From: Branchiostoma floridae
Lineage: Eukaryota > Chordata > Leptocardii > Amphioxiformes > Branchiostomatidae
Direction: 5' to 3'
DNA length: 64,000 nucleotides
NCBI RefSeq assembly: GCF_000003815.2
Contig: NC_049981.1
Location: forward strand, 21,913,512-21,977,511
Part shown: positions 3,345 through 61,962 of the stretch, piece after piece
Layout of the letters: every line of letters starts with the position of its first letter
Position numbering within the stretch: position 1 is the stretch's first letter
Notes under the pieces: model-generated
Told to the model about the DNA's origin: nothing
Databases searched by the model: none
The model's input: the letters and a program-made list of their open reading frames with translations, nothing else
Position numbers and translations under genes: made by a program

Positions 3345-5567
3345 GATTGTTTGTTTGTTTGTTTGTTTATTCAGTTTGCACATACAAAATGATAATAAAT
3401 ACAGAAGAGAATAAAATATAAAACAGGTGCAGGAGGAGGGAAAAAACCTTAACGGTTTATGCTGTGCCCTCCTCCTCTATGCTTATACAAAACGTATGAT
3501 CAATGAAATCATAATATACAAAGAAAGAACTAGCACGTTAGAATAATGCAAAAGATGTACGATCAGTGAAATCAATAAATAACAAACATAAGTAACTAAC
3601 ACAATCATATGTTATAATAATACAACAAAAGATATATGATTAGTGAATCAATAAATAGCAAGGAGAAGTAACTAACTCAGTCTTATGTTATAGTAATCCA
3701 AAAAAAGAAAATGTGTGATCAATGAAATCAAATGATAATAGCAATATGAATTAAGATAGGATAAATATTTCTATAAGGGGCTAGGGTCGTTTATGAGATA
3801 TGTTTTCAGGGCACTTTTAAATGTAAGGAGGGAAGAAGTGTTTTTTATATTTGTAGGAAGACTGTTCCAGATTGTGGCACATCTATATTTTACGGTGGAC
3901 TGCGCTAATGATGTTCGAAAGAGAGGGATATGGAGTAGATTTCTTTGCCTGGTATGATAATTGTGTACATGTGAATTAGGGATTAGGAAAATTTTAAACA
4001 TATCGGGGAGATTATTAGAAAGATAGTTAAACGTGAATATACTAATTTGTAGCTTATTTATATCAAACACATTCAATATTTTCAATTTTAGAAATAAAGG
4101 GGCTGTATGTGAAAGAAAATCAGAGGCGGTGGCCATTCGTGTGAATTTTTTTGTAGAGTTGTAAGTGGGTGAAGTGTTGTATGGCACGCACATCCCCAAA
4201 CTATATTGCAATAAGTCAAGTACGGGTATATAAGGCTGTTGTAAATAGTTGAAAGGGACTTTAGAGGAATATTGTGTTTGATTTTCCCAATAACACCAAT
4301 TGTTTTAGCAACTGTTTTACTTACGGCGGAGACATGGGCTTTCCAATTTAATTTTTCATCTATAATTACTCCCAAAAATTTAGTTTGTTTCTCCTGCTTT
4401 ATAGGAACATTCTGTAGGAAAATTTTGGCCTTATTAATATCATAGCTTTTATTCTTGCTACAGAAAATGAGAAAATTTGTTTTTTTTAGTATTTATTGAT
4501 AATTTATTGGCTTCAAACCATGTAGCTACTTTGCGCAATTCTTGGTTAGCCAGTTGTATCAGAGAGTCAAAATTCTTGTGGGAAAGGAATATGTTGGTGT
4601 CATCGGCAAACAGTATAAAATAAAGTATTGAGGAGGCTTCCGCCAGATCATTGACGTAAATTAAGAATAATAGAGGACCTAAAATCGACCCTTGCGGTAC
4701 TCCACATTGAATTTCCTTGTATGTAGATTTAACTCCATTTAAAGTTACGTATTGTTTCCTATGATTTAGATAATTTTGGAACCAGTTCAGTGCAGTGCCA
4801 GTAACACCGTATGCAGCTAATTTTCGGAGGAGTATGGTATGATTTACGGTATCGAAGGCTTTGGATAAATCTAAAAATATTCCAATTGTATACTCATTTT
4901 TGTCAATGGCAGTGGATATTTTGTCTATTAGTTGAATAAGAGCAAGTGGGGTGGATATACCTTTACGGAAACCGTATTGATGTTTATATAGGATATTATT
5001 TGTGTTAAGATATTTTAGTAATCAATTGTAAACTAGCCTTTCGAAAAGTTTTGAGATGCTGGGCAAGACTGAGATCGGTCGATAATTGCTAAATGAAGTC
5101 GAGTCTCCCCCCTTGAATATAGGTATAACCTTTGCAATCTTTGTTCCGTTTGGAACATCTCCACTTTGTAACGACATGTTAAGAATATGAGTTAGAAGAG
5201 TAAGGATGTAAGGAAGGGCCGATTTTAGGGCTTTAGATTTAATTTCGTCATAACCAGCGGCGGAGTCTTTTAAGTTTAAAACAATGTCCTCTACTTCTTT
5301 GTTCGTGGTTGGCTCAAAAAGTGATAAAGAACAATTTGTAGGGGCCTTGATGTAGCTTATCGGATCTTGGTTTGTACTTGTGATGTTATTTGCTAGATTA
5401 GCACCAATATCAACAAAGAACTTATTACACTCGTTACATATTTCAACATTTTCAGTGATGATTTTATCTCCAACTTTTATTTCTTGTGGGCCTGTGTTTC
5501 TTGTTTTTTTACGATTCATAACTTCATTAATAACTCCCCATGTCTGCTTTATATCAAGACTTGTCAC
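3345..5567 (-). mobile_element. Non-LTR retrotransposon (LINE), 5'-truncated reverse transcriptase
   Basis: Read on the minus strand, the frame 5567-5022 gives FSNYRPISVLPSISKLFERL, a reverse transcriptase motif of the Jockey/CR1/L2-type clades. After a CGA-to-TGA stop the same frame continues with FLDLSKAFDTVNH (about 4838-4873), GVPQGSILGPLLF and the catalytic FADDTN (4593-4610). Indels in two poly-A runs (about 4480 and 4149) shift the frame; a thumb/C-terminal region follows (GVIIDEKLNWKAHV at 4375 downward, then HNYHTRQRNL...WNSLP to 3771). The endonuclease half is missing, as expected for 5' truncation. The 3' UTR has a hairpin of GAGGAGGAGGG and its complement (about 3430-3480) and ends in (AAAC)n at 3346-3368. 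Only three lesions suggest a fairly young dead copy. The exact clade is not decided. Confidence 0.9.
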
Positions 5568-31336: not shown

Positions 31337-31342
31337 TTTATT
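31337..31342 (-). terminator. Poly(A) signal of the secreted peptide gene
   Basis: AATAAA on the minus strand, about 113 nt after the stop codon at 31455-31457. Confidence 0.65.
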
Positions 31343-31454
31343 CAATGTTATCTATTGATCATCTCCACCCAAAGCCCTTGCTGATATTAGTAACGAAATT
31401 CGATGAATCAATGGTGGAAAGATCTTCGGCCGTCTGCCTCATTCTCCAGCTGCT

Positions 31455-32797
31455 CTACTTCTTCCCATTCTTGTGCTTCTTGCACCCATTTAGGCATGCT
31501 GGGCGATTATTGCATTTCGAGGCGCATCTGTTGTATTCAAACATGCCTCGCGTTTCCATCAGCAGCTCCCGCAGGTCTGTTAGGACAAGAAATAATGAGA
31601 GATGTAACAATTATATACTGATTGCAAGACGAGGTGAGACAGGGAGAAAATTGACAAGAATGTACGTGAACAAAAAGCAGTCAAACGACACTATGCGGTA
31701 GAACGTCGACGTCATATGCATGTTGCATATAAAGTTATGACGCAATTTATCCAACCAGTATAACAGAACTGTTTCTTTGTGTAGCTTATTGTTTTTGCAC
31801 CTTTATTTGTGTTTATTTGTATTTGTAACATTGTACTTATTTCTTTTTTTTTCCTTGAATAAAAAAAGACAAAAAGAACAACAACATCACAACACGTACA
31901 TTCTTCCTGAGCGTCCAGGTCTTCGTCATCGGCTGGCATGTCTTCGTCCAGCATGTCTTCGTCATCCTGGTCTCGCTTCTCCATTGCCATCTCCAGTTGA
32001 TCTGGACAAGAGACGAAGTACATGAGAGGTTAGAAACCACTGATGGCAAACCGACGAGACGGACACAAGTGAAATTCATAACAATCACAATCAAACATCA
32101 GTATACACCATACAACATGTACGTCACAGTCGTACATGTATAGCATTAAGTCATTGTTTGTATGCGGCTATTGTTCTTATGTGTTTATGTGGTAAAGCCT
32201 GTGTAATAAGGTCGAAATTCGGGTGTACGTGTGTTTGCCCGCGAGAGCCTTACTGAATAAAACATTGATTGATTGATTGTTGGTTGGTCGATTGATTGAT
32301 TGATTGATTGATTGAACATCGATTGATTGACCTTGTGCACGTGGCCTTGCGAAAGACACTTTAAACGACTTTCTTCACTTCACTCAGGTGGAGATGAGTA
32401 CATTGTACTTAGTTTGGTTGGAGCCCACCACAATCGACCGATCCCGAAGCCCCGCCCCAAGTTCGATCACGTTCTATTTCGAACACCTCCGTCAAAAACA
32501 GCATTTCCGTCCCACTGGGGCTGTTTTTGACGGAGGTGTTCGAAATAGAACAGAGGGTTCTGCCTAGTTCTATTTGTTCGATATGGTGTTCGATCAGGAT
32601 TGGTCCATTATAGAAAAAGAGTGGATCAATAGAATGTGTAGCTAGCACACCTTAAGATGCATGACCGGGTATGCAACCAAACAAAACGTACCTTGTAAGT
32701 CTTCCACCCTGGACATCAGGTCTTGAATGCGCTCCGCAGGGATGGCTGAGGCAAGCGCGAGGCAGCCGAAGAAAAGCACACACAGAGTCAGCTTCAT
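31455..32797 (-). CDS. Secreted cysteine-rich, probably amidated peptide precursor (three exons)
   Basis: Exons on the minus strand: 32797-32692, 32001-31900, 31576-31455. Junctions: CAAG|GTACGT, TTGTCCAG|ATC, AAT|GTACGT and CTAACAG|ACC; phases 1 and 1 agree and give 109 codons plus TAG. Residues 1-18 are a signal peptide (MKLTLCVLFFGCLALASA). A Lys-Arg pair (44-45) precedes an acidic stretch (15 Asp/Glu in residues 46-69). Residues 80-109 are basic and contain CX3C-X5-CX3C (Cys 87, 91, 97, 101), ending Asn-Gly-Lys-Lys. A Gly followed by a dibasic pair at the C-terminus is the classic amidation signal. The layout is that of a peptide hormone, neuropeptide or host-defence peptide precursor, and the cysteine spacing is that of helical-hairpin (CX3C-Xn-CX3C) peptides; I recognise no named family. 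The exon structure is seen directly; processing and role are inferred. A 5' UTR intron is possible (acceptor CTCACCAG at 32809). Confidence 0.75.
32160..32335 (+). repeat. Retroelement 3' end with (ATTG)n tail inside intron 1 of the peptide gene
   Basis: 'gtaataaggtcgaaattcg..gcgagagccttactgaataaaac' followed by (ATTG)n with interruptions. Confidence 0.6.
32471..32551. repeat. Perfect 32-bp inverted repeat with 17-bp loop
   Basis: Left arm 32471-32502 starts GTTCTATTTCGAACACCTCC; right arm 32520-32551 is its exact reverse complement. It lies in intron 1 of the peptide gene, about 140 bp downstream of exon 1. The loop is ATTTCCGTCCCACTGGG. Perfect arms imply recent origin or selection. Confidence 0.9.
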
Positions 32798-33156
32798 CTT
32801 TTGATGGTCTGGTGAGCAAGTTACAAACAATGTAAGTATGTATGACGTAATAGTTAAAGCCCTTGGATCAAAACGCATACTGTTGTATTTCGTGACGTTC
32901 TCACGAAACAACCATTCATCTTCTGTGAAGATAATTTTGCAGTAAGATCATGTATATTCAACTTGTAGAAAATGACCAAAAACAGTGAATTTGGTTTGAT
33001 CTCTCATAGTCTACAATGTCAATGTCCAATTCTTCACGCGAAAATTTGCTACATCGGTGTTCTTTGTATTGGAAATTGCAGTTACAAATTCCTCATAGTC
33101 AATTCTACCAGATTAACTTTCCGTGGGATTAAGAGCGTTGAAACATAGCGAAGCGC

Positions 33157-51263: not shown

Positions 51264-61962
<10,699 letters not shown>

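Follow-up and report, generated by a model that had tools for sequence, protein, structure and literature searches.

The gene and its encoded precursor

The 64,000-nucleotide (nt) stretch of the Branchiostoma floridae genome analysed here (the window) contains, at 31337..32797, a gene for a four-cysteine peptide, hereafter the focal gene. It is carried by the minus strand, a point left unstated by the initial annotation, and its three coding sequence (CDS) exons join to 330 nt, encoding 109 residues and a stop codon. The sequence confirms what had been described of the gene: three exons with GT-AG introns and agreeing phases, a polyadenylation signal and a 109-residue product. Both introns are of phase 1 and both begin with the donor GTACGT. 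The features of the locus and of the precursor, aligned where relevant with the paralogues described in the next section, are as follows.

32798..32811, minus strand: possible 3′ splice site of an intron in the 5′ untranslated region (UTR), CACCAG then ACCATCAAAAG ahead of the ATG
32797-32692, minus strand: exon 1 CDS, 106 nt, ending in phase 1 at AAG/GTACGT; encodes the signal peptide and the start of the pro-region
Residues 1-18 (exon 1): signal peptide, hydrophobic, ending ASA; putative cleavage at ASA/IP
32002..32691, minus strand: intron 1, phase 1, including a GATT-rich run
32001-31900, minus strand: exon 2, 102 nt, residues 36-69, with Lys-Arg 44-45 and the acidic spacer; resembles exon 2 of the paralogues
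Residues 46-69 (exon 2): acidic spacer, 15/24 Asp/Glu
31577..31899, minus strand: intron 2, phase 1, 3′ end TCCTAACAG
31576-31455, minus strand: exon 3 CDS, residues 70-109, TAG stop
31548..31574, minus strand: residues 71-79, LRELLMETR: end of the conserved leader, corresponding to LQEMEMEKR in the paralogues
31467..31547, minus strand: putative mature peptide GMFEYNRCASKCNNRPACLNGCKKHKN, residues 80-106, predicted helix-loop-helix
31458..31466, minus strand: putative amidation signal, Gly107-Lys108-Lys109
31342-31337, minus strand: AATAAA polyadenylation signal, 112 nt past the stop
31257-31252, minus strand: second AATAAA

The GC content of exons 1, 2 and 3 is 0.56, 0.53 and 0.50, compared with 0.43 and 0.33 for the two introns, and that of third codon positions (GC3) is 0.66. 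Intron 1 also contains an inverted repeat with perfect 32-nt arms (32471-32502 and 32520-32551, with a 17-nt loop), perhaps a small foldback element.

As a control for chance, the window and 2000 dinucleotide-shuffled versions of it were scanned for three-exon models that have a signal-like start. One model in the window combines an amidation end, four cysteines and an acidic stretch. Single features were found in some shuffles (an amidation end in 11, four cysteines in the tail in 743, the cysteine motif in four, an acidic stretch in none), and no tested pair (amidation and cysteines, cysteines and acidic stretch, amidation and acidic stretch) occurred in any of the 2000, in a control that is lenient because a shuffle yielded on average 12.7 models compared with 157 in the real window, and whose criteria were fixed after the gene had been seen.

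The translation also bears out the principal features assigned earlier to the precursor, namely Lys-Arg at 44-45, 15 acidic residues among the 24 of the spacer, and a C-terminal segment with the spacing CX3C-X5-CX3C (Cys87, Cys91, Cys97 and Cys101) followed by a terminal Gly107-Lys-Lys. The cysteine spacing had been said to fit the helical-hairpin peptide class; the motif falls within the range of the alpha-hairpinins (see below), and the AlphaFold2 model agrees. In single-sequence mode, AlphaFold2 placed helices at 79-91 and 95-107 of exon 3 (mean predicted local distance difference test score (pLDDT) 75.9, predicted template modelling score (pTM) 0.43), and at 81-91 and 95-107 of the mature peptide alone (mean pLDDT 85.6, pTM 0.41). 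Searched with Foldseek against 350,542 solved chains, the first model gave nothing significant, the sole match with an expectation value (E) of 10 or less being the Pis v 3.0101 vicilin leader sequence (E 9.8); the second likewise gave nothing significant, with an unrelated maltase as its sole match (E 9.0), and did not repeat the vicilin match. VIA gave no match for the predicted hairpin. Searches with the focal precursor returned no significant Pfam family and, by sequence, no significant PDB chain. The helical hairpin is thus put forward as a prediction, not as a structural match.

A dispersed family with a shared leader

The genome, in which the window occupies C3:21913512-21977511, was searched over 513,431,437 bases in 431 contigs, and the family counts given here are lower bounds. 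With the whole focal protein, only its own three exons match at E ≤ 0.001. Exon 1 alone (35 residues) matches ten other loci at E ≤ 10, on contigs C4, C5, C7, C9, C15 and C17, with 33-35 residues aligned at 49-58% identity and E from 5e-4 to 0.46. Stretches of about 9 kilobases (kb) were examined for each of these ten loci, and exon borders were set by splice consensus and reading frame alone, exon 2 of L021 being the least certain. An acidic exon 2 like that of the focal gene, e.g. EQLEMEMEKRDQADEDEDLEAEAE, lies downstream in all ten, in a search that had phase 1-1 and acidity, not sequence likeness, as its conditions. An exon 3 with the shared leader end (DLQEMEMEKR or near, starting [D/Y]L[Q/R]) follows in nine; at the tenth, L028, exon 3 was searched for and not found. 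The similarity extends into non-coding sequence: the 3′ end of intron 2, TCCTAACAG, is identical at seven other family loci and has one mismatch at another, and the paralogues have a CAG shortly 5′ of AAG-ATG, parallel to the possible 5′ UTR splice site of the focal gene.

A pattern made from the exon 3 splice site and exon start occurs at 22 places in the genome with at most two mismatches, compared with eight for the reversed control pattern. The nine places with no or one mismatch are accounted for by the focal gene, by seven of the ten paralogues and by L033, a further locus, situated on C5. L033 has an acidic exon 2 and an exon 3 with a truncated mature part, and no exon 1 was seen within the 1.5 kb examined upstream. 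At the two-mismatch places (L038-L050), the exon 3 frame was read in 13 of 13 and no family-like exon 3 was found. Three of these loci on C8, L043, L044 and L045, have similar open ends reading ACCSYCRTSPPCSYTGRR after an AG, a CC-C-C peptide with Gly-Arg-Arg; L044 has long open frames, and the three are probably parts of a repeat. We do not count them as family members: their sequence resembles that of a repeat, and no acidic exon occurs within 1.5 kb upstream of L044, the only one of them inspected. In the window itself, no paralogue was found beyond the focal gene's own exons.

Eleven loci besides the focal gene thus carry homologous exons (exon 1 at ten of them, exon 2 at all 11 and exon 3 at ten). 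As read from the genome, the family comprises no fewer than 12 loci, the focal gene included, 11 of them with a readable exon 3, and its plan is a signal/pro exon, an acidic exon, and then DLQEMEMEKR or a similar sequence followed by the mature peptide. On sequence grounds the focal gene is a real gene, of which the recurrence of its exons with identical intron phases at other loci is stronger proof than the shuffle control. A decayed or chance gene model could point to the truncation of L033, to the exon 3 not found at L028, and to the METR of the focal gene, which departs from the dibasic site of the family; the frame, splice sites and polyadenylation signal are intact, however, the tested feature pairs are absent from all shuffles and homologous exons exist at 11 other loci, so that we regard this explanation as barely credible. 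A lone orphan hormone gene is ruled out by the family that the exon 1 search revealed. The initial annotation of an unrecognised gene for a secreted, amidated four-cysteine peptide therefore holds in that the gene is real and its product secreted and probably amidated, but not in presenting it alone, since its leader exons have counterparts at 11 other loci. A search of the openly licensed PubMed Central papers found none that contains any of four stretches of the focal precursor. Nor is such a family described, by title and start of abstract, among the matches listed there for amphioxus antimicrobial, neuropeptide, cysteine-rich and hypervariable multigene topics, or among those listed for BjAMP1, CX3C cysteine motifs, turgencins, and acidic propeptides with helical hairpins.

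The paralogues also inform the choice of processing site. Lys-Arg or Arg-Arg stands directly before the mature peptide in all ten readable paralogues, where the focal gene has METR, ending in the single Arg79. As the other family features are present, we read METR as a one-residue divergence, and the peptide is probably released after Arg79, giving a product that begins at Gly80. Of the cleavage sites proposed earlier, dibasic or single Arg, the latter is thus retained as the release site, and Lys-Arg 44-45 is probably not one by the paralogue alignment: Lys-Arg occurs in exon 2 of six of the ten exon 1 paralogues, in which a further Lys-Arg or Arg-Arg adjoins the mature part.

The encoded peptides form a varied repertoire. 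CX3C-Xn-CX3/4C is present in seven of the 11 readable members, the focal gene included, one of them with X4. The spacing is 3-5-3 in the focal gene, 3-4-3 in L019, 3-7-3 in L022, 3-6-3 in L027, 3-13-3 in L023 and L025, and 3-12-4 in L026. The calculated charge of these seven mature peptides runs from +0.4 to +8.8, and that of the pro-regions from −11 to −18. Seven of the 11 readable members (the focal gene, L020-L024 and L027) end in Gly or Gly with basic residues, making amidation possible, and among the readable members the focal gene shares its exact Gly-Lys-Lys end with one other, L023. After Arg-Arg, L020 (C15) and L024 (C4) encode mature peptides that are short and lack cysteine, QGLPPGFKG and QGLPPGMG respectively, which could become pyroglutamyl, amidated peptides.

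Divergence of the mature segment

Among the seven four-cysteine members (21 pairs in a multiple alignment), the leaders have a mean identity of 0.67 (0.48-0.99) and the mature segments one of 0.27 (0.19-0.42), or 0.14 without the shared cysteines, estimates that depend on the alignment because free-gap pairwise values are higher over fewer residues. The focal gene and L023, aligned in that way, reach 0.65 over about 20 mature codons compared with 57% in their leaders, a result to be set against the defence interpretation given below.

Because a conserved leader is combined with a mature peptide that is hypervariable, mostly cationic and framed by disulfides, with a charge-balancing acidic pro-part and with an amidation end, we consider, with a probability of roughly two in three, that the focal gene encodes the prepropeptide of a secreted host-defence family of amphioxus, from which an amidated alpha-hairpin peptide is freed after Arg79. 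The choice among the hormone, neuropeptide and defence peptide that had been proposed is not an open one, as the hypervariable mature part and conserved leader of the four-cysteine members favour defence. A peptide hormone or neuropeptide precursor, yielding an amidated four-cysteine peptide for a receptor of the animal itself, would account for the signal peptide, basic cleavage sites and amidation glycine of the focal gene, and the short and mutually alike peptides of L020 and L024, which could be pyroglutamated and amidated, would suit it. Receptor ligands, however, usually keep their mature sequence, which the identities above, alignment-dependent as they are, do not suggest here, and neither a Pfam family nor a solved chain matched significantly; we judge a hormone quite unlikely.

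The position of the divergence was followed in pairs of our own selection, nine for the codon comparison and five for the identities of segments. L025 and L026 are a tandem pair 23 kb apart, between positions 1371 and 1396 kb of C5. From 400 nt 5′ of the ATG to exon 3 they are 92-100% identical in each 200-column step, gaps excluded; identity is 0.99 in the last 150 nt of intron 2 and 1.00 in the 29-nt leader of exon 3, drops to 0.57 in the 108-nt mature segment, and returns to 95% over 292 aligned nt past the stop. Of the mature nucleotides 46/108 differ, compared with 2/179 in the adjoining intron and leader (Fisher test, 1e-20, on counts rebuilt from rounded identities). The proportions of synonymous (pS) and nonsynonymous (pN) differences are 0.38 and 0.44 in the mature segment, and 0.02 and 0.01 in the leader. 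For the end of intron 2, leader, mature segment and downstream sequence, in that order, identities are 0.90, 0.97, 0.48 and 0.81 in L023/L026, and 0.96, 0.93, 0.46 and 0.67 in L022/L027. A contrast between intron and mature segment is therefore seen in these three pairs, and not in the two others, which count against a general rule: L020/L024 has no sharp boundary (0.95, 0.97, 0.84 and 0.62), and the focal gene has diverged too far from L019 for one to be visible (0.65, 0.76, 0.52 and 0.41).

Selection on point mutations alone is not accepted as the cause of the divergence, since it leaves synonymous change unraised, and synonymous differences are raised as well in L025/L026. The candidates are therefore exchange of a cassette, focal hypermutation, or gene conversion that homogenised the flanks of a long-standing variable segment. 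That focal hypervariability lies between nearly identical flanks in this tandem pair could also be expected of a self/non-self or gamete-recognition family, in which the diversity would itself be the function; small cationic, amidated disulfide peptides would be unusual in such a role, and we hold this to be very improbable. Within the host-defence interpretation, it is possible, if not quite probable, that the family is a dispersed set of lancelet alpha-hairpin defence genes in which the mature segment alone has diversified as a cassette, such that the approximately 100 nt past the Lys-Arg codons underwent replacement or hypermutation, also at synonymous sites, and kept little beyond the cysteines, while leader, introns and downstream sequence remained almost the same between some copies.

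Frog-skin peptide and conotoxin precursors likewise combine a conserved signal and pro-region with a hypervariable mature peptide behind a basic site. These superfamilies belong to unrelated lineages, and are likened to the lancelet family by the general plan of their precursors. If the cassette interpretation is correct, the lancelet genes would stand as a chordate parallel to the way in which conotoxins and frog-skin peptides have diversified. The sharp divergence boundary at the cleavage site makes diversification of a short cassette directly testable by sequencing individuals.

Precedents, proposed action and neighbouring features

The initial annotation knew of no chordate family with this arrangement, and overlooked two partial precedents, BjAMP1 (PMC4683396) and the turgencins (PMC7024374), both of which do differ from the focal gene. 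The closest published precursor plan is that of BjAMP1 from B. japonicum, which is induced by lipopolysaccharide (LPS) and lipoteichoic acid (LTA) and inhibits bacteria (PMC4683396). Its gene is present in this genome on C11, where the mature B. japonicum peptide is encoded unchanged and the published primer P1-F matches exactly; as reconstructed here it encodes 35 + 24 + 38 = 97 residues, with Arg-Arg at 75-76 as published and intron phases 0 and 1. Like the focal gene, it has three coding exons, a signal, an anionic region, a cationic cysteine-containing C-terminus and a final Gly with two basic residues, and shares with it the phase 1 of intron 2 and an exon 1 that differs in length by a single nucleotide (105 versus 106 nt). 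Unlike the focal gene, it has two mature cysteines instead of four, no CX3C, and an intron 1 of phase 0 instead of 1. Pairwise similarity to the focal gene, assessed by shuffles, has p 0.02 over the whole, 0.04 without the signal, and 0.38-0.59 by exon. A hidden Markov model (HMM) of the family scored BjAMP1 at 11.0 bits (E 0.0096), first of 501, the best of 500 shuffles reaching 9.6. Common descent of the two genes is only suggested by these comparisons, and we do not assign BjAMP1 to the family, because the phase of intron 1 differs and the similarity is weak. Downstream of the last exon of BjAMP1 (L005:5817-5932), a second mature-peptide exon with a phase-1 acceptor, L005:6056-6177 (G000:C11:7848056-7848177), reads VPDLPFESDTMSEIERRNMCRNNPKARKMPQCRRFRVGRR; it is an alternative last exon or a tandem copy.

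Turgencins A and B of the ascidian Synoicum turgens are cationic, amidated and antibacterial, with six cysteines paired C1-C6/C2-C5/C3-C4 (PMC7024374). They resemble the focal peptide in coming from a chordate and in being cationic and amidated, with a ladder of cysteines and a helix-loop-helix tendency, but have six cysteines instead of four in the mature part. Their precursors could not be compared, since the complementary DNA (cDNA) was not obtained in that paper. The St-CRPs of the same ascidian (PMC13208793), amidated but with the arrangement CC-C-C-CC, were set aside.

Alpha-hairpinins are defined by CX3C-X4-20-CX3C, and the 12 members with proven activity are plant peptides (PMC11591084). 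The motif is found in the focal gene and in L019, L022, L023, L025 and L027; L026 has X4 in its second pair. The likeness consists of this motif and of the predicted helix-loop-helix, with no sequence match to a solved chain, and is likely convergent. Members of the class resemble scorpion kappa-toxins, and venom peptides, too, are marked by a hypervariable mature part behind a constant leader; the class also includes trypsin inhibitors (PMC11591084). A secreted alpha-hairpin directed at a protein target of other animals or of microbes, acting as a deterrent by inhibiting a protease or binding an ion channel instead of a membrane, would accord with these points. Lancelets, however, are not known to have a venom apparatus, and positive charge together with an acidic pro-region is the antimicrobial pattern, as also described for BjAMP1. 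We consider such a deterrent unlikely, albeit less so than the hormone.

For the preferred defence peptide, the following sequence of events is proposed. Signal peptidase would remove residues 1-18, and the anionic pro-region (charge about −18) would neutralise the cationic C-terminal peptide (about +7 untrimmed) and carry it along the secretory path, by analogy with other defence-peptide precursors. A protease would then cleave after Arg79, as the aligned Lys-Arg and Arg-Arg sites of the paralogues suggest, a carboxypeptidase would strip Lys108-Lys109, and an amidating enzyme would convert Gly107 to a C-terminal amide. The 27-residue product would consist of two short predicted helices tied by Cys87-Cys101 and Cys91-Cys97, a pairing taken from the alpha-hairpinin class, and would most likely act on microbes at an epithelium.

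Several findings speak against parts of this defence interpretation. The putative cleavage site of the focal gene is a single Arg in place of the dibasic site of the readable paralogues. Not every member is an alpha-hairpin, since four have fewer than four cysteines: L021 has three, L033 is cut short after one, and L020 and L024 encode nine- and eight-residue peptides with none. The mature peptide of L019 is nearly without net charge (+0.4), and four of the 11 readable members end in a way that would not allow amidation. Neither predicted model has a significant solved counterpart by Foldseek. The homology of BjAMP1 to the family is weak, and a later paper calls BjAMP1 weakly antibacterial and not bactericidal (PMC8558516).

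If the defence interpretation is correct, these 12 or more loci, which combine a constant leader with a cysteine-framed hypervariable peptide, would add a sizeable new component to the innate immunity of a chordate lineage that is not known to have antibodies. Few antimicrobial peptides are known from amphioxus. The leader exon would provide a simple handle on the repertoire of any lancelet genome.

Elsewhere in the window, a cadherin-domain exon lies upstream of the focal gene (53721-54062, minus strand, Pfam E 1.3e-21), and cadherin-like sequences, recognised by motif only, extend on the minus strand to about 60691. The reverse-transcriptase fragment of a retroelement is located at 4461-5021 (minus strand, RVT_1 E 1e-29).

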